The notes beneath the pieces were generated by a model that was given only the letters and a program-made list of their open reading frames with translations, did no database searches and was not told the origin of the DNA. This document shows positions 27,562 through 41,736 of a stretch of DNA of 62,546 bases, piece after piece. This DNA comes from Lentzea tibetensis (GTDB lineage Bacteria; Actinomycetota; Actinomycetes; Mycobacteriales; Pseudonocardiaceae), in contig NZ_VOBR01000040.1 in NCBI RefSeq assembly GCF_007845675.1, positions 1 to 62,546 on the forward strand, in the 5' to 3' direction. Both the position numbers and the translations under genes were made by a program. Every line of letters begins with the position of its first letter. The stretch's first letter is position 1.

Positions 27562-28944
27562 TTAAGGCCTCGCGCGCCCTCCACCAGACCGCACGGTCTC
27601 CGGTCGCGACCGCGTGTGCCTGCGCCGTTGGGACGGCGGAGACATCGAGGAAGAGACCGACGGGGGAACAGACAGTGCGGTGGTGGGAACCTGTTCGCGA
27701 ACGGGAGCCGGCTCCGGTGCGGGGGCGGGTGCCGGTGCGGGCTCGGCGGGAGCCTGCTCCGGCTTCGTCCACGCGGGACGGTCCAGTTCGACGGTGTTCT
27801 GCCGGAAGAGCTCCGGCGTGTTGACGATGATCCGGCCGGGCGCTTCGAGCCCGACCAGCCCGACGAGCTTGCCGTCGGCGATGAAGCCGGTGAGGCCGTT
27901 CACGTCGGTCGTGTCCTTGCCGAGCACGGGAAGTCCCGCGCCCTGCACGCGCATGCCGTACATCTCGGTCCAGAACCGGGGAACCGGCGTGTACGGCTTG
28001 GCGGCCGACTTGCCGATCAGCAGGTTCTCGGCGGCCGCGCGGCCGCCCTCGACGGCGTTGAGCCAGTGCTCGACGCGCCGCAGTGCGCCGTTGAAGCGCA
28101 TGTTCGGCCAGCGCGCGACGTCACCGCAGGCGACGATGTTCTCCGCGCCGACGACGTGGTTGGTGGCATCGCACAGGATGCCGTCCTCGATGATCAAACC
28201 GCTGCCGCGCAGCCACTCCACGGCAGGCGACGCGCCGACCGCTAGCACGACGCACGAGGCGAAGAAGACCTGGCCGTCGGACAGGTGGATGCCGATGCCG
28301 CCCGGCTGGCGCACCCAGTGCCGGATGCCGACACCGGTCGCGAGCCGCACGCCGTGGTGCCGGTGCGCGTCGGTGATGGTCTTGCCGATGTCGTCGCCGA
28401 CCACACCACCGAGCAGCTGCGGGGAACGCGCGATGAGCGCGACGTCGCGGCCGAGGTGGCGCACCGAGCAGGCGATCTCGCAGCCGATGAAGCCACCGCC
28501 GATGACGGCGACGAGGCCCTGGCTGTCCCGGATGCTGTTCTTGATGGCGACGGCGTCGTCCAGCGTGCGCAGCACGTGCACCCGCGGGTCGTGGCGCGGT
28601 GCGCCGTTCATCGTCCTGGCGTCGACGCCGGTGGCGATGATCATGCCGTCGTACTTCATCTGCTCGCCGCCCGGCAGCCACACGGTCTGCCGGTCCGGTT
28701 CGAGGCTCAGCGCGGGGGTGCCCAGCCGCCATTCGGCGTCGAGGTCGGCGTCGAACGACAGGCGTGCGTCGTCGGGGTGCCATTCGCCGGTGATGACCTG
28801 CTTGGACAGCGCAGGCCGGTGGTAGGGGAGGTGGCGCTCGGCCGACAGGATGGTCACCTGTCCGTCGAAACCCATCTCCCGCAACCGTTCAGCGGCCCGG
28901 ACTCCACCAAGCCCACCGCCCACGATGACGATGCGTTCGGTCAT
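27562..28944 (-). CDS. FAD/NAD(P)H-dependent ferredoxin-reductase-like oxidoreductase
   Basis: 460-aa pyridine-nucleotide-disulfide-type flavoprotein resembling putidaredoxin/ferredoxin reductases. It has the FAD Rossmann VIVGGGLGGVRAAE at the N-terminus, an NAD(P) Rossmann AVIGGGFIGCEIA and the flavin motif NIVACGDVARW. The C-terminal ~75 residues form a Pro/Ala-rich tail (PAPAPAPAPEPAP) then an Arg-rich end, unusual for the family and possibly a flexible tether. Its ATG shares one base with the stop of the heme/ferredoxin gene (TAATG), so it is very likely that protein's electron donor. Confidence 0.9.
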   Translation of the reverse strand: MTERIVIVGGGLGGVRAAERLREMGFDGQVTILSAERHLPYHRPALSKQVITGEWHPDDARLSFDADLDAEWRLGTPALSLEPDRQTVWLPGGEQMKYDGMIIATGVDARTMNGAPRHDPRVHVLRTLDDAVAIKNSIRDSQGLVAVIGGGFIGCEIACSVRHLGRDVALIARSPQLLGGVVGDDIGKTITDAHRHHGVRLATGVGIRHWVRQPGGIGIHLSDGQVFFASCVVLAVGASPAVEWLRGSGLIIEDGILCDATNHVVGAENIVACGDVARWPNMRFNGALRRVEHWLNAVEGGRAAAENLLIGKSAAKPYTPVPRFWTEMYGMRVQGAGLPVLGKDTTDVNGLTGFIADGKLVGLVGLEAPGRIIVNTPELFRQNTVELDRPAWTKPEQAPAEPAPAPAPAPEPAPVREQVPTTALSVPPSVSSSMSPPSQRRRHTRSRPETVRSGGGRARP

Positions 28945-29861
28945 TACTTCACACGCTCCCTGATCTCGATCGCACGCATCGGACACGCACGCGCTGCCGC
29001 GCGGGCCTGTGCGAAGTGCTCTTCGTCCGGGCGCCGGTTGTACGTGAGCCGGTTGTCCTCGATGAGCTGGAAGACGTCCGGTGCCTCGGCCTGGCAGGTG
29101 CCGTACCGGTGGCACTTCTCGTTGTTCACGCTGACGTCCATCGCGTCGCCCTCGCCGACGGCGGCGGGCTCCGCTTCCAACATGCCGATCTTGGCGAGGA
29201 CCTCCGGTGGCATGAACCTGGCGATCGCGAGCGTCGCCGTCGGGACGAGGACGGTCAGTCCGCCCAGCCACAGGAGTGAGAGGTTGCCGTTGGCGATGGC
29301 GCCGAGCCAGGAGTGCACCACGGTGAGGGCGACCGCGGCATAAGCGACCTGGTGGAGGCGCAACCACTTGCGGTAGAAGACTTTGTGCCGGACCGACGCG
29401 GTGATGGCGATCGCCGCCATCAGCTCGAGTCCGATGATGCCCATGCTGTGCCGGACGAGGCCGCCGTCGATCAACGGGACGATCAGCCGGATCAGGTTGA
29501 AGGGCGAGTAGTCGGGTGGGTCGCTGCGCAACAAGGTGAAGGCGAAGGCGTGCAACGCCCCGAACGCGATGGCGAGCGTGGCGAGCACCATGTGCCCGTT
29601 CTTCAGACCTTCCCTGCCGGTGAGCCGCTGGGCCCACCCGGTAGCGATCAGCACGCCCCAGGACAGGGTCGCGCACATGAGAACGTAAGCCAGCCTGGCG
29701 GAGATCTGGGCCATCTTCTTGACACCTGAGTCGAAGTCAGACGCCTGAGCCACCAGGAGCGGAATCTGGCTGAACAATCGATCCTCCGGAAAGTACTGCT
29801 CTGCTGTCTCGTCTGCGGTTGTCGCGGAACCCGTCCGGCCCTGCCGTGCAGGAGTGGACAC
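28944..29861 (-). CDS. Ferric-reductase-like di-heme membrane protein fused to [3Fe-4S] ferredoxin
   Basis: 305-aa membrane redox protein. About six hydrophobic helices (53-215) carry two bis-histidine pairs with NOX/FRE spacing: His90/His104 (H-x13-H) and His170/His183 (H-x12-H), which would bind two hemes stacked across the membrane. A ferredoxin domain (about 240-305) follows, with Cys250-x5-Cys256 and Cys293-Pro, the three-cysteine pattern of [3Fe-4S] ferredoxins. The usual FAD/NADPH domain is missing; the adjacent coupled gene encodes a separate flavoprotein. Probable path: NAD(P)H to FAD to Fe-S to hemes to an external acceptor. The GTG start at 29861 lacks a ribosome site; an ATG at residue 50 is an alternative. 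Confidence 0.85.
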   Translation of the reverse strand: MSTPARQGRTGSATTADETAEQYFPEDRLFSQIPLLVAQASDFDSGVKKMAQISARLAYVLMCATLSWGVLIATGWAQRLTGREGLKNGHMVLATLAIAFGALHAFAFTLLRSDPPDYSPFNLIRLIVPLIDGGLVRHSMGIIGLELMAAIAITASVRHKVFYRKWLRLHQVAYAAVALTVVHSWLGAIANGNLSLLWLGGLTVLVPTATLAIARFMPPEVLAKIGMLEAEPAAVGEGDAMDVSVNNEKCHRYGTCQAEAPDVFQLIEDNRLTYNRRPDEEHFAQARAAARACPMRAIEIRERVK

Positions 29862-29877
29862 GTAAGACCGGACGGGT
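29829..29877 (-). promoter_or_regulatory. Inverted repeat spanning the start codon of the heme/ferredoxin gene
   Basis: Perfect 10-bp arms ACCCGTCCGG and CCGGACGGGT flank a 29-nt loop that contains the GTG start codon. It could regulate translation in the mRNA or be a protein-binding site; it may also be chance in G/C-rich DNA. Confidence 0.35.
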
Positions 29878-29954
29878 GGGAACAGGTCCGCGTTGGAGTG
29901 CCTTGGCTGCTAGGCGTCACCTCCTCGCTTGCTGCGTCGAAGGGGTCTAACGGA

Positions 29955-30683
29955 TCACCGCACCGGCTTTCGCGGGCGGAGAACTCGGAGGAGCGCGAGC
30001 GTGGTCACGATGCCCGCGGCGGCCACGACCAGGACGACGACCATGTTCGGTGCGCCCTGCGACGTGTCGAGTGATGCGTTGACGATGCCGAGCGTGCCGC
30101 CCGCGGGCACCGGCTGGGCGCGGCCCTCGTCACTGACGAGTCCCGTGCTCTCCAGCAGGGTCATGTGCTTCATCACGACCGCGTTGCCGATCTGCGCGAA
30201 CGGCCGGATCTCGTCGTTGGCCGTCTGGGTCCGCACCAGCGCGATGAAGGTGAACACCTGGCCGTGTGCGGCACGGAGACGGTCCGCGAACTTGCGGTCG
30301 AACTCGGCGCCCTTCAGACCCTGCAGCTCGGTCATCCAGGTCTGCTGCGCCGGTGTCGGCATGTCCGGGATCGGGATGCCGAACTTGGCCGCGAGCTCGT
30401 TGGAGGCCGTGTCGAGCTTCATGTGGTCGAGCATCAGCTGCTTGCCGACGACCTTCACGCGGTCGCTTTCGGCGTTGGTCTGAGCGAGCTCGCCCATCGG
30501 CATCTCCCACAGACCGGCCTGCTTGACCTTGATGATCAGGTCGCGGTCGTTCTGCGTGAGCGGTCCGGATGGGGTGTCGACGGTGGGGTTGTTCTCCGCC
30601 GGTTGCGCCAGAGCGGATGCGGAGCCGCTCAGCAGGAGGAAGAACAGGGCCAGGACGGTGACTAGGGCTCTTTTGATCATCAT
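29955..30683 (-). CDS. DUF4142 secreted, C-terminally membrane-anchored protein
   Basis: 242-aa exported protein. A signal peptide ends near ALA-QPA (about 24-27). The four-helix DUF4142 domain (LTQNDRDLIIKVKQAGLWEM, QLMLDHMKLDTASNELAAK, FTFIALVRTQTANDEIRPFA) is ferritin-like in outline. A C-terminal transmembrane helix (about 212-233) with a basic tail RVLRPRKPVR anchors it to the outer face. Family function is unknown. It lies 43 nt after the lipoprotein gene and 93 nt before the heme/ferredoxin gene, so it is probably part of the same export-side redox unit. Confidence 0.85.
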   Translation of the reverse strand: MMIKRALVTVLALFFLLLSGSASALAQPAENNPTVDTPSGPLTQNDRDLIIKVKQAGLWEMPMGELAQTNAESDRVKVVGKQLMLDHMKLDTASNELAAKFGIPIPDMPTPAQQTWMTELQGLKGAEFDRKFADRLRAAHGQVFTFIALVRTQTANDEIRPFAQIGNAVVMKHMTLLESTGLVSDEGRAQPVPAGGTLGIVNASLDTSQGAPNMVVVLVVAAAGIVTTLALLRVLRPRKPVR

Positions 30684-30726
30684 CGTCGTCAGTGTTCGTC
30701 CGTCAGTAGGAGGGGAGTCGGGGGAT

Positions 30727-31326
30727 TCAGTAGCCGGCGCCGCCGGACGGGGGAGCCGTCGGCGTCGAACCCTGTTGCTGCTTGGGCTTCGTCTGCTGTT
30801 GTTGCGGGGTCTGGCTCGTGCCGGGAACACCGGGCATGCCCTGTCCGGGAGCGGCCTTCGCCCCGGTCGGTGCGGTGGCGTACCACTTGCCGCCGCTGCC
30901 CTGTCCCTTCACGTCACCGGGCGCCTTGTCCTCGGCGAACGTGTACTGCGGAAAACCACCGATGGTCAGCTGCTTGGAGCCGTCCGCCCTGGTCACCACT
31001 CCGAGAACGAGCGGGTCCACACCGGCCGTCATGGGCATGACGTCGGCGGGAACGGGCGGCCACTTCCTCGCGCACTCACCTTCGCAAGTGGTCTTCGGCG
31101 GCTTGGAGCTGTCGGCGTCGAACCGGTACATCGTGCGTCCGTCGCCGTTGGTCAGGTACCAGCCGAGCTGTGGAGACTCCGAGATGGCGATCATCGCCTT
31201 CGGGTCGGAAGCCTTCGCTTCATTCCCCTGAGCTGCTTGTTTCGGAATCGCTGCCGCACCCGCGCTGCACGCGGACACGGCCAGCGCCAGTGCCGGAACC
31301 GCGAGGAGGGCCAGGGCACGTCGCAT
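30727..31326 (-). CDS. Lipoprotein with Yx(FWY)xxD repeats (COG4315 / lipoprotein_15)
   Basis: 199-aa exported lipoprotein. The lipobox AVSAC places the lipid on Cys20. Two copies of the family repeat follow: MYRFDADSSKPPKTTC with CEGECARKWPPVPA, then PQYTFAEDKAPGDVKGQG. The Yx(FWY)xxD signature and the CxxxC pair are diagnostic. A long Pro/Gln/Gly-rich C-terminal tail (TPQQQQTKPKQQQG) is presumably a wall-spanning spacer. Family function is unknown. It heads the leftward operon and is divergent from the ECF sigma gene across 115 bp, so it is a likely target of that sigma factor. Confidence 0.88.
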   Translation of the reverse strand: MRRALALLAVPALALAVSACSAGAAAIPKQAAQGNEAKASDPKAMIAISESPQLGWYLTNGDGRTMYRFDADSSKPPKTTCEGECARKWPPVPADVMPMTAGVDPLVLGVVTRADGSKQLTIGGFPQYTFAEDKAPGDVKGQGSGGKWYATAPTGAKAAPGQGMPGVPGTSQTPQQQQTKPKQQQGSTPTAPPSGGAGY

Positions 31327-31441
31327 CTTGGCTGTCCTTTCGCTGTTGGGGTACCGAGGAGTACGGACACCATCCGGTCACGGTTCACGAACAACGTGAC
31401 GAATATTTGCCTCTCGACTTGAGACGGTTGATGGGGCAAGG

Positions 31442-32005
31442 ATGTCCCCCGTGGCGCGGCATAGACGTCAACGCGAGTTAGCAGACACACCAAGACCGGG
31501 GAGCCTCGAAGAGGAGTTGATTCGCCGGCTGTACGAAGAGTTCGGCAGTGCACTGCTCGGCCACTGCATGCGGTTGACCGGCCATGATCGTCAATGGGCC
31601 GAGGACATCGTGCAGGAAACGCTGGTCAGGGCATGGCGCAATGCCGAGAAACTGGAGCGCGACCCCGTACTGCTGAGATCATGGTTGTTCACAGTGGCGC
31701 GGCGGTTGGTCATCGACGATCGGCGCAAGCGAAGCGTCCGTCCGCAGGAGTTCGAGTTGACTCCTTCGGACGAGTCTCCTCAGGCAAACGAGGAAGACAG
31801 GACGCTGGCGGCGATCGTGGTGGCGGAAGCCATGAACGGGCTGTCCGAGGAACATCGGGAGGCTATTCTCGAGACGTACCTGCGGGATCGCACCGTTGGT
31901 GAGGCCGCGGCGGCACTCGGTGTGCCTCCCGGCACGGTCAAGTCAAGGGTGTACTACGCGCTGCGTGCGCTCAGGCGCGCGCTGCACGATCGGGGAGAGC
32001 GGTGA
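31442..32005 (+). CDS. ECF-type RNA polymerase sigma factor (SigL-like)
   Basis: 187-aa extracytoplasmic-function sigma factor. Region 2 (LYEEFGSALLGHCMRL, then WAEDIVQETLVRAWRN and RSWLFTVARRLVIDDRR) and region 4 (LSEEHREAILETYLRD, then GVPPGTVKSRVYYALRAL) are complete. There is no extra C-terminal domain. It overlaps its anti-sigma gene by 4 nt (GTGA) and is divergent from the redox operon, the usual arrangement for a sigma factor controlling itself and its neighbours. Confidence 0.93.
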   Translation: MSPVARHRRQRELADTPRPGSLEEELIRRLYEEFGSALLGHCMRLTGHDRQWAEDIVQETLVRAWRNAEKLERDPVLLRSWLFTVARRLVIDDRRKRSVRPQEFELTPSDESPQANEEDRTLAAIVVAEAMNGLSEEHREAILETYLRDRTVGEAAAALGVPPGTVKSRVYYALRALRRALHDRGER

Positions 32006-32751
32006 CCACGGCACCTGACCACCTCGACGTAGCGGCCTACGTGCTCGGCATCCTCGATGCCGAGGAGGTCGATGCGTTCGAGAACCACCTGACCGAGTGT
32101 CGCCGGTGTGCTCTCGACCTGCGCGACTTCGCGGTGGTGCCGGACCTGATCGACGAGGCGGACGCGGGCGGCATGCTCAGGGGGACCGCCCCCGAACGGC
32201 CCGACGGCAAGTCGGTCCGCGTGATGCTGGACCAGGTCGCGGCACGACGACGTCGTCGCCGCTGGTTCGTGGCACAGGGTGTCGCGGCAGCAGCCGCGGG
32301 CATCATCGCGGTGACCGCGGTCGTCACGACGCTCGTCGTCAGAGGTGACAACGACTCGGCGAACACGGCGCAACCGGGTTCGACGACGTCGTCGACGGAG
32401 ACGTCGCAGACGAGGGTCGCCAACAACTCGACCGACGAGAGCAAGAAGGTGTCGGGCAACAACCAGGCGACCGGCGTCACGGCGAGCATCGAGGCCACGG
32501 ACGAACCGTGGGGTACCTCGATCAAGCTCGAGATCAGCGGTATGGCGGCTCCCGCCAAGGGATCCTTGGTCGCCGTGTCGCGGACCGGGCGCGTCGCCCA
32601 GATCGCCAGCTTCTTCGCGCCGGAGACGGTCGCGGGTGAGAAGAAGGCGTTCCACCCGATCGGAAGCGTTGCGATGCGGTGGCACGACATCGCCGTCTTC
32701 CGGGTCGCGGACGACAACGGAAAGGTGCTCGTGGAGGTTCTCGCCTCCTGA
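32002..32751 (+). CDS. Membrane anti-sigma factor with ZAS zinc motif (RslA-like)
   Basis: 249-aa partner of the ECF sigma factor. The N-terminal domain has the zinc-associated H-x3-C-x2-C motif (HLTECRRC, about 30-37) that binds the sigma factor and often senses redox change. One transmembrane helix follows (about 94-115), then a Ser/Thr-rich linker and an extracytoplasmic RskA-like C-terminal domain (SIEATDEPWGTSIKLEISG). The stop is followed by a strong terminator. Thiol oxidation or proteolysis would be the plausible release signal. Confidence 0.92.
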   Translation: MTTAPDHLDVAAYVLGILDAEEVDAFENHLTECRRCALDLRDFAVVPDLIDEADAGGMLRGTAPERPDGKSVRVMLDQVAARRRRRRWFVAQGVAAAAAGIIAVTAVVTTLVVRGDNDSANTAQPGSTTSSTETSQTRVANNSTDESKKVSGNNQATGVTASIEATDEPWGTSIKLEISGMAAPAKGSLVAVSRTGRVAQIASFFAPETVAGEKKAFHPIGSVAMRWHDIAVFRVADDNGKVLVEVLAS

Positions 32752-40753: not shown

Positions 40754-40785
40754 ACCCAGGCGTACGGCCGGTCAGCCCAACGGGT

Positions 40786-41736
40786 TCAGTTCTCGGCTTT
40801 CCGCAGCCGCATGCCGAGCCCGCTGGCGGCGAGCAGCACGACGCCGGCGACGAGCACCAGGCCGCCACCGCTGACCGTCCCGTCCGTCCAGTCCCACACC
40901 GCCTCCGGCACGACGAGCGTCGTGGCGACCACTCCGGCGACGAGCAGCACGAGCGAGTGTTCCCGCAGGTAGGTGGCGAAGCTGCCGACGGCCGCGATGG
41001 CCGTGAGCCCGTACGCCCACGCCGCGGTGTCGTTGTCCGTGATGGGCAGCTGAGCGCCGATGAGCGCGATGGTCGCCCCGACAGCGAGGCCCAGCTGCCG
41101 CTGCGGGACGAGTCCGGACAGCGTGATCCCGATCCACGCCGTGCCGAGCACGAAGAGGGCGAGCCCGACGGTGAGCGACGTCCCGTCCGCCTGCTCGCCC
41201 GCCGCGTCGCCGACGACCAGCGCGCTGAACAACCCGGTCGCCAGCAGTCCCGGTGCGGTGGGCAGCAGCAGGTAGGTGGCCGCCGCGACGACGAGCCCGG
41301 CGAGACTGCCGACGAACAGCTCGTCGCGGTCGACCGTCGCCCCGCCGAGGAACGCGGTCGTGCCGGACGCCAGCGCGAACAGCGTCCCGACGATGCGCCG
41401 CCGCACACCGGAGATGACGCGCACCGCGGTGGGCCCGCCCGCGATCAGCAGCCCGCCGACGAGCAGCACCAGTGTCGCCGCGGTCAGCAGCCCGATCCGG
41501 CTGCCCCGGCTGAGGTCGTCCCACGACGTCGAGACGAGCAGCGCGGCACCGCCGAGCAGCAGTCCTCCGCCGACGTACCCGATGACCTCGATCAGGCGTT
41601 CCGGTCTGGTGGCGGCAGCGGGCCGGTGCAGCGCGGCCACGACGGCGCGTTCCTGGTCCTCGTCGAGCACTCCGGTGCGGACGAGGTCACGCAGCGACGA
41701 GAGTTGTTCGGTGCTGAGCTCCACGGGAACCAGCAT
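40786..41736 (-). CDS. DUF2157-type multi-spanning membrane protein
   Basis: 316-aa membrane protein. A short cytosolic helical N-terminus (LSTEQLSSLRDLVRTGVLDE, then DQERAVVAAL) matches the DUF2157 start, and nine or ten hydrophobic helices follow (for example IGYVGGGLLLGGAALLVS and GLVLVAGVVLLAASGLGM). Family function is unknown. It sits 32 nt upstream of the NlpC/P60 copy 2 start on the same strand and may be co-transcribed with it. Confidence 0.8.
   Translation of the reverse strand: MLVPVELSTEQLSSLRDLVRTGVLDEDQERAVVAALHRPAAATRPERLIEVIGYVGGGLLLGGAALLVSTSWDDLSRGSRIGLLTAATLVLLVGGLLIAGGPTAVRVISGVRRRIVGTLFALASGTTAFLGGATVDRDELFVGSLAGLVVAAATYLLLPTAPGLLATGLFSALVVGDAAGEQADGTSLTVGLALFVLGTAWIGITLSGLVPQRQLGLAVGATIALIGAQLPITDNDTAAWAYGLTAIAAVGSFATYLREHSLVLLVAGVVATTLVVPEAVWDWTDGTVSGGGLVLVAGVVLLAASGLGMRLRKAEN

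Follow-up and report, generated by a model that had tools for sequence, protein, structure and literature searches.

Redox chains of actinobacterial cytochromes P450 consist of an FAD ferredoxin reductase and a [3Fe-4S] ferredoxin encoded by adjacent genes. Some heme-based electron carriers of the membrane belong to the NADPH oxidase/ferric reductase (NOX/FRE) family, which includes the bacterial SpNOX (PMC5676040, PMC11564096); ferric reductase domains joined to Fer2 or to additional domains of other kinds (PMC3591440) and actinobacterial MsrQ-like flavinylated systems with FMN-binding partners (PMC8238504) are also described, and the sigma factor SigL of M. tuberculosis is said in PMC10449499 to control about 20 genes for envelope and secreted proteins. 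Exploring a stretch of 62,546 nucleotides from Lentzea tibetensis (contig NZ_VOBR01000040.1; hereafter the window, to which all positions refer), we found a gene cluster in which a ferric reductase-like membrane protein carrying a ferredoxin domain is followed by a ferredoxin reductase. The cluster combines two familiar electron-transfer kits in a way for which we found no counterpart: our searches of the open-access literature listed no system with a ferric reductase domain, a three-Cys ferredoxin and an FAD reductase of the AIF/BphA4 class, in agreement with the initial annotation of this DNA, which knew of no characterised system with this exact set. We lean towards the view that the cluster encodes an envelope-redox electron exporter with surface partners, whose acceptor would be a metal centre or a disulfide, and that it is probably under the control of a sigmaL/RslA-like extracytoplasmic function (ECF) sigma factor.

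The four genes of the module are transcribed from the minus strand in the order lipoprotein, DUF4142 protein, heme-ferredoxin protein and reductase, and a sigma/anti-sigma gene pair lies divergently on the plus strand:

27562..28944, minus strand: FAD/NAD(P)H ferredoxin reductase of the TodA/BphA4/putidaredoxin reductase class, 460 amino acids with a tail of ~78 (translation, Pfam and PDB matches)
28944..29861, minus strand: membrane protein with a ferric reductase domain and a C-terminal three-Cys ferredoxin, 305 amino acids from a GTG start (Pfam, alignment)
29955..30683, minus strand: DUF4142 protein with a putative signal peptide, three conserved His and a C-terminal membrane anchor (PF13628, 1.7e-21; hydropathy)
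30727..31326, minus strand: SCO0930-like YxFxxD lipoprotein with lipobox C20 and C81-x3-C85 (PF03640, 8.8e-25)
31362..31387, minus strand: ECF-promoter-like TGAACC-N16-CGTA, 35 nucleotides before the lipoprotein ATG (motif conservation)
31442..32005, plus strand: sigmaL-like ECF sigma factor (PRK09645, 201.4 bits against a cut-off of 202; PDB match SigL 6dv9)
32002..32751, plus strand: membrane anti-sigma factor, overlapping the sigma gene, with HxxxCxxC (HLTECRRC), one hydrophobic helix and an outer domain (zf-HC2, 1.1e-5)

The heme-ferredoxin protein and its reductase

The translation of the membrane protein gene carries two bis-His pairs, H90-x13-H104 and H170-x12-H183, followed by C250, C256 and C293. 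The x13/x12 spacing of the histidines is that of NOX proteins. Together with a PF01794 match over residues 58-180 (32.5 bits, or 35.1 in a second scan, against a cut-off of 28), the two pairs place the protein in the ferric reductase domain superfamily, and a Fer4_13 match covers residues 245-299 (34.4 bits against a cut-off of 24.5). All four predicted heme-ligand histidines are identical in 64/64 aligned rows, and the three cysteines in 45/45 rows of fused proteins and, by reading, in all 19 ferredoxins encoded separately; both sets are kept even in loci L040 and L041, which come from other families of the order and share 28 and 26% identity. Conservation of the four His and three Cys exceeds chance. 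The initial annotation had read the protein as a ferric reductase/NOX heme domain in which a three-Cys ferredoxin replaces the flavin domain, and this domain reading stands. The ferredoxin pattern, C-x5-C...CP without a fourth-ligand Cys or Asp, is that of [3Fe-4S] proteins, and nine aligned rows have Tyr or Phe as the third residue after C250, where a fourth ligand would normally sit, which makes [3Fe-4S] likelier than [4Fe-4S]; the domain is thus most likely to hold a [3Fe-4S] cluster.

Hydropathy analysis gave segments at 57-75, 92-110, 135-153 and 172-190, then overlapping ones to 217, five to six in total, which by reading would correspond to TM2-TM6 of NOX. Three positive charges lie in each of the loops 79-89 and 161-169, against one and zero negative charges, respectively, and by the positive-inside rule the ferredoxin would therefore be cytosolic and H90/H170 would bind the inner heme. 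The protein may start at TTG 29777 instead of GTG 29861, since GGAGG lies directly before the TTG. Only Fer4-type Pfam matches follow the membrane part, and no C-terminal FAD/NAD(P)H domains of the kind that marks NOX/FRE proteins were found in the chain. The genome of L. tibetensis encodes three other PF01794 proteins of 446-454 amino acids which by eye carry the usual C-terminal flavin/NAD part, so that the window protein is the odd one out.

The flavoprotein missing from this chain is supplied, as initially annotated, by a gene that overlaps by a single base: the stop codon TAA (28946-28944) and the reductase ATG (28944-28942) share position 28944. The reductase matches Pyr_redox_2 (6.8e-52) and, in the PDB, 6tuk (2.4e-50), TodA (3ef6, 4.3e-47), biphenyl dioxygenase ferredoxin reductase (4h4x, 1.9e-44) and putidaredoxin reductase (3lb8, 6.4e-33), and by these matches it belongs with the reductases that pass electrons to the ferredoxins of P450s and dioxygenases. 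Reductases of the TodA/BphA4 class differ from the FNR-type domain of NOX/FRE. The C-terminal tail noticed earlier (27562-27800) is Pro/Ala-rich and then basic, and its end, SSSMSPP[LS]QRRRH[ST]RSRPE, is nearly invariant in the window and in 23/23 loci, L055-L077. Tail length, counted by alignment to the window reductase, which sets the Lentzea tails at 78 residues by construction, ranged from 23 to 996 residues in 62/63 loci. In Actinophytocola the tails hold tandem repeats, DSF..MPPV and SS.GMPPARR (noted at loci L093, L110 and L116); our guess is that the tail serves as a docking or scaffold element. We also observed that the anti-sigma factors at L110:5420-6964 and L112:5994-7235 carry a long low-complexity repeat between the zinc motif and the membrane helix, and that the L110 repeat contains an SMPAV-like motif as in the reductase tail.

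Conservation of the gene set and its exported partners

Co-occurrence of the genes in relatives had been named as one check on the initial annotation. A scan of named genomes with a five-row alignment of the membrane protein yielded 63 loci, and the proportions below hold among loci that carry this protein, since the scan was made with it. Neighbouring genes were scored by tblastn with the window proteins, those for DUF4142, the lipoprotein and the regulator pair within 6 kb; locus L064 is cut off upstream. A ferredoxin and a reductase lie downstream of the membrane protein in 63/63 loci, with a gap of no more than 60 nucleotides to the aligned reductase start in 60/63. DUF4142 was found in 51/63 loci, the lipoprotein in 45/63, the sigma gene in 53/63 and the anti-sigma gene in 46/63, and 43/63 hold the full set together. 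Lack of conservation, which the initial annotation had named as refuting it, was thus not observed. Sixty-two loci are labelled Pseudonocardiaceae; the remaining one is labelled Nocardia sp. and groups with Lentzea in the tree. By the tree data the closest named relative is Lentzea sp. NBRC 105346 (82% in the membrane domain).

A near full-length match to the membrane protein was present in 25/25 genomes of the genus. Across the family, matches at 1e-20 were found in 70/200 genomes and 16/46 genera, and the 130 genomes without a match at this threshold indicate that the module is patchy in the family. A profile search of the phylum gave matches at 1e-8 in 109/396 genomes; among the matches listed, which include no other Pseudonocardiaceae genome, only that of L. 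tibetensis itself spans the heme helices and the ferredoxin, and these matches were not counted as the module. In one remote genome of the phylum (G377, contig C17:100544-101232) the membrane part and the ferredoxin each have a match of their own in adjacent positions, which may represent a far-diverged form of the pair.

Membrane domain and ferredoxin form one chain in 44/63 loci and are encoded by neighbouring genes in 19/63; such a joined-or-apart pattern is a classic sign of partnership and argues that the two work together. A tree of the membrane domain, whose bootstrap is not settled, requires two changes of the fused/split label and does not decide their direction. A recent accidental fusion was considered as well; it is to be set beside these two label changes and the fused state of the distant L040 and L041. 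In L092, L093 and L100 the DUF4142 frame, as listed, extends into the beginning of the membrane gene, which points to joint expression. In three of the four Kutzneria loci (L099, L106, L117) another reductase gene flanks the module at its opposite side.

The two upstream genes had been taken for exported proteins on the same strand, a DUF4142 protein and a Yx(FWY)xxD lipoprotein, and their Pfam matches bear out these family assignments. Three histidines of DUF4142 are nearly invariant (H87 in 51/52, H140 in 51/52 and H173 in 52/52 rows), and hydropathy revealed segments at 7-25 and 214-232, the second being a C-terminal anchor helix that had escaped the initial annotation. C20, C81 and C85 of the lipoprotein are identical in 46/46 rows. 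It scored 174.6 bits against the NCBIfam SCO0930 family NF040526, below the cut-off of 275. SCO0930 is named in the SigU regulon of S. coelicolor (excerpts of PMC6295645), and within the available portions of PMC6295645 and PMC2267785 it appears only in lists or tables. A PDB search with DUF4142 and with the lipoprotein returned no convincing relative. A gene of the secreted DUF1996 family lies upstream of the module in 7/63 loci and, by reading, also in L040 and L041 (checked by Pfam in L041 and L088). Separately, two Actinophytocola loci (L093:6339-7154, L095:6175-7353) encode, just upstream of the sigma gene and the module, an exported-looking protein with two Rieske-type [2Fe-2S] motifs.

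The sigma/anti-sigma pair and the TGAACC-N16-CGTA motif

The initial annotation read the module as a split NOX/FRE-like electron carrier; its domain reading, the split-NOX-like logic and the conservation of the gene set held up, whereas it overlooked the regulator pair (31442-32751) and the promoter-like motif, which shift the framing to an envelope-stress (sigmaL-like) response. The best PDB match of the window sigma factor is SigL (6dv9, 1e-31; the next match reaches 6.5e-15), and its PRK09645 score falls 0.6 bits under the cut-off. The anti-sigma factor has a hydrophobic helix at 94-112, and its best PDB match, weak at E 0.0056, is 3hug_B, which we take to be the RslA structure. With SigL as the nearest solved sigma factor and a membrane anti-sigma factor bearing HxxxCxxC, the pair is of the sigmaL/RslA type. 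In RslA this motif is redox-sensitive, according to part of PMC2877774.

TGAACC-N16-CGTA, oriented towards the lipoprotein gene, was found in 45/45 divergent regions between the sigma and lipoprotein genes. Among these 45 regions TGAACC and CGTA occurred only at spacer 16 and at none of the spacers 12-15 or 17-20, and the motif was absent from 9000 mononucleotide-shuffled regions; the placement suggests that the sigma factor probably reads it. The L. tibetensis genome holds 19 sites against 3 for the reversed control, and the genomes of five relatives 117 against 15. The motif precedes a CopM-like DUF305 lipoprotein gene in 25/25 genomes (0/5 DUF305 paralogues) and a gene for a secreted Cys protein in 25/25. 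We read the context of 83 of the 136 sites in the six genomes (all 65 of three genomes and 6 each of the three others), keeping sites without a sensible downstream gene as singles. Recurrent downstream genes encode, by their Pfam matches, another PF03640 protein, a thioredoxin-like lipoprotein with WCPSC, and proteins of the DUF3455, DUF2231 and NlpC/P60 families, as well as, by reading, further ECF sigma factors. In L041 the motif lies ~90 nucleotides before the DUF1996 gene, and none was found in L040.

Two further observations concern the motif and its sigma factors. A second site in the window (40763-40788) lies just before an NlpC/P60 gene (39743-40753), a pairing that recurs in two other Lentzea genomes. 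In L096, L098, L102 and L103, which belong to Amycolatopsis, Prauserella and Qaidamihabitans, a second ECF sigma gene and two YxFxxD lipoprotein matches lie around 3.4-5.5 kb of the locus, a few kilobases from the module.

Proposed electron export, its rivals and known systems

In the mechanism that we propose, the zinc-type anti-sigma factor would let go of its sigma factor under redox or metal stress at the envelope; the freed sigma factor would recognise TGAACC-N16-CGTA in front of the lipoprotein gene and of scattered genes for exported proteins, and expression of the operon and of these genes would rise. NAD(P)H would reduce the FAD reductase and the reductase the inner-face ferredoxin domain, most likely [3Fe-4S], from which electrons would pass to the inner heme (H90/H170) and on to the outer heme (H104/H183). 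Their destination would be a metal or disulfide centre outside the cytoplasm, the first candidate acceptors being the three-His site of the anchored DUF4142 protein and the C-x3-C of the lipoprotein. We regard it as a serious though tentative possibility that the cluster represents a novel type of regulated electron exporter: a P450-type carrier pair (FAD reductase and [3Fe-4S] ferredoxin), coupled to a NOX-type heme domain, would deliver electrons to exported DUF4142, YxFxxD, DUF305 or DUF1996 proteins while the sigmaL-like factor co-ordinates the envelope regulon. If true, it would give these unexplained surface families their first redox role. It offers candidate partners for exported families of unknown function (DUF4142, PF03640, DUF305, DUF1996), and the conserved motif singles out envelope genes that may be co-regulated, by which the function of a sigmaL-like regulon becomes directly testable in a harmless soil actinomycete.

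Several findings weigh against this picture. No lipoprotein match was found in 18/63 loci and no DUF4142 in 12/63 (L064 being in both counts), indicating that neither is a universal acceptor; among the seven DUF1996 loci, five are without the lipoprotein and four without DUF4142. None of the 45 divergent regions has the motif facing the sigma gene, so the motif test gave no sign of sigma autoregulation. Of 17 uncut loci without the lipoprotein, six have a site that, by reading, possibly serves the module, four have one only inside a reductase-like coding start and seven have none; TGAACC matches at 8370-9345 in L099, L104, L106 and L117 were rejected as promoters for lying within the first codons of reductase-like frames. 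Several genome-wide sites fall in open coding frames, the motif may also be recognised by other ECF sigma factors, and some clusters of sites may be due to chance. The reductase has A172-R173 at a site that bears on the choice of NADH or NADPH as donor, where an acidic residue is usual in NADH enzymes. Finally, the outer loop 112-138 likewise has three positive charges, balanced by three negative ones.

Two of the rival explanations are narrower versions of the electron exporter and overlap with it. The outer heme might act as a ferric/cupric reductase on free or protein-bound Fe(III)/Cu(II), with DUF4142, DUF305 and DUF1996 holding metal, an explanation that we regard as possible but doubtful. 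FRE and STEAP proteins are a precedent for metal reduction, and a PHH sequence occurs in the DUF305 lipoprotein whose gene follows the shared motif. CopM, a DUF305 protein, binds copper and its domain has an HH motif (excerpts of PMC4335983), and a sigL mutant of M. tuberculosis grows poorly at low iron (part of PMC10449499); both favour a metal substrate. Electrons might instead go to the lipoprotein C-x3-C or to a thioredoxin-like lipoprotein for extracytoplasmic thiol/methionine repair of the MsrQ or DsbD kind. C81 and C85, kept in 46/46 rows, the WCPSC lipoprotein whose gene follows TGAACC-N16-CGTA in four genomes (G000, G002, G010, G024) and the redox sensitivity of RslA (PMC2877774) speak for such repair, whereas at motif level WCxxC open reading frames occur in only 11/63 loci; on the whole we think it somewhat unlikely.

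Reduction of O2 by the outer heme, as in a superoxide-generating NOX analogue, would agree with the heme motif and with its NOX spacing, but the conserved exported partners and the motif-sharing exported proteins would then be unexpected, and by this argument, which is not a test, we consider superoxide production improbable. Actinobacterial P450s use reductases and three-Cys ferredoxins of this kind, and the ferredoxin part has its best PDB match in a segment of a P450 chain (6mcw, Cytochrome P450 51, 6.5e-9); reductase and ferredoxin could both serve a cytosolic cytochrome P450, the membrane part being a mere tether. However, a P450 heme-loop motif was detected in only 3/63 loci, and four invariant heme histidines are not expected in a tether, which makes this the least credible explanation and a very improbable one.

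The proposed electron exporter can finally be compared with the known systems. Like MsrQ/YedZ systems, the module pairs a PF01794 heme protein with an extracytoplasmic partner; unlike them, its donor is a ferredoxin with an FAD reductase and its exported proteins are others. No FMN-binding motif partner was recognised with the one motif scanned in the 63 loci, the SGAT-like motif occurring in 4/63, in a C39-peptidase gene (L061), anti-sigma genes (L084, L093) and a 117-amino-acid open reading frame (L114). The regulator resembles sigmaL-RslA of M. tuberculosis in its nearest solved sigma factor, its weakly nearest solved anti-sigma factor and the HxxxCxxC motif; sigmaL-RslA is not known to control a heme/ferredoxin module. 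With the actinobacterial P450 chains the module shares the two kinds of electron carrier and the adjacency of their genes, but its carriers accompany a heme domain in the membrane, to which the ferredoxin is joined in 44/63 loci, and not a P450. As in NOX/FRE proteins, there is a ferric reductase domain, with two bis-His b hemes and an inside NAD(P)H donor predicted; in contrast to them, the place of the fused FAD/NAD(P)H dehydrogenase is taken by a three-Cys ferredoxin fed by a separate flavoprotein of another class. The module would work like a split FRE/NOX but stands outside the family as defined by a fused dehydrogenase.

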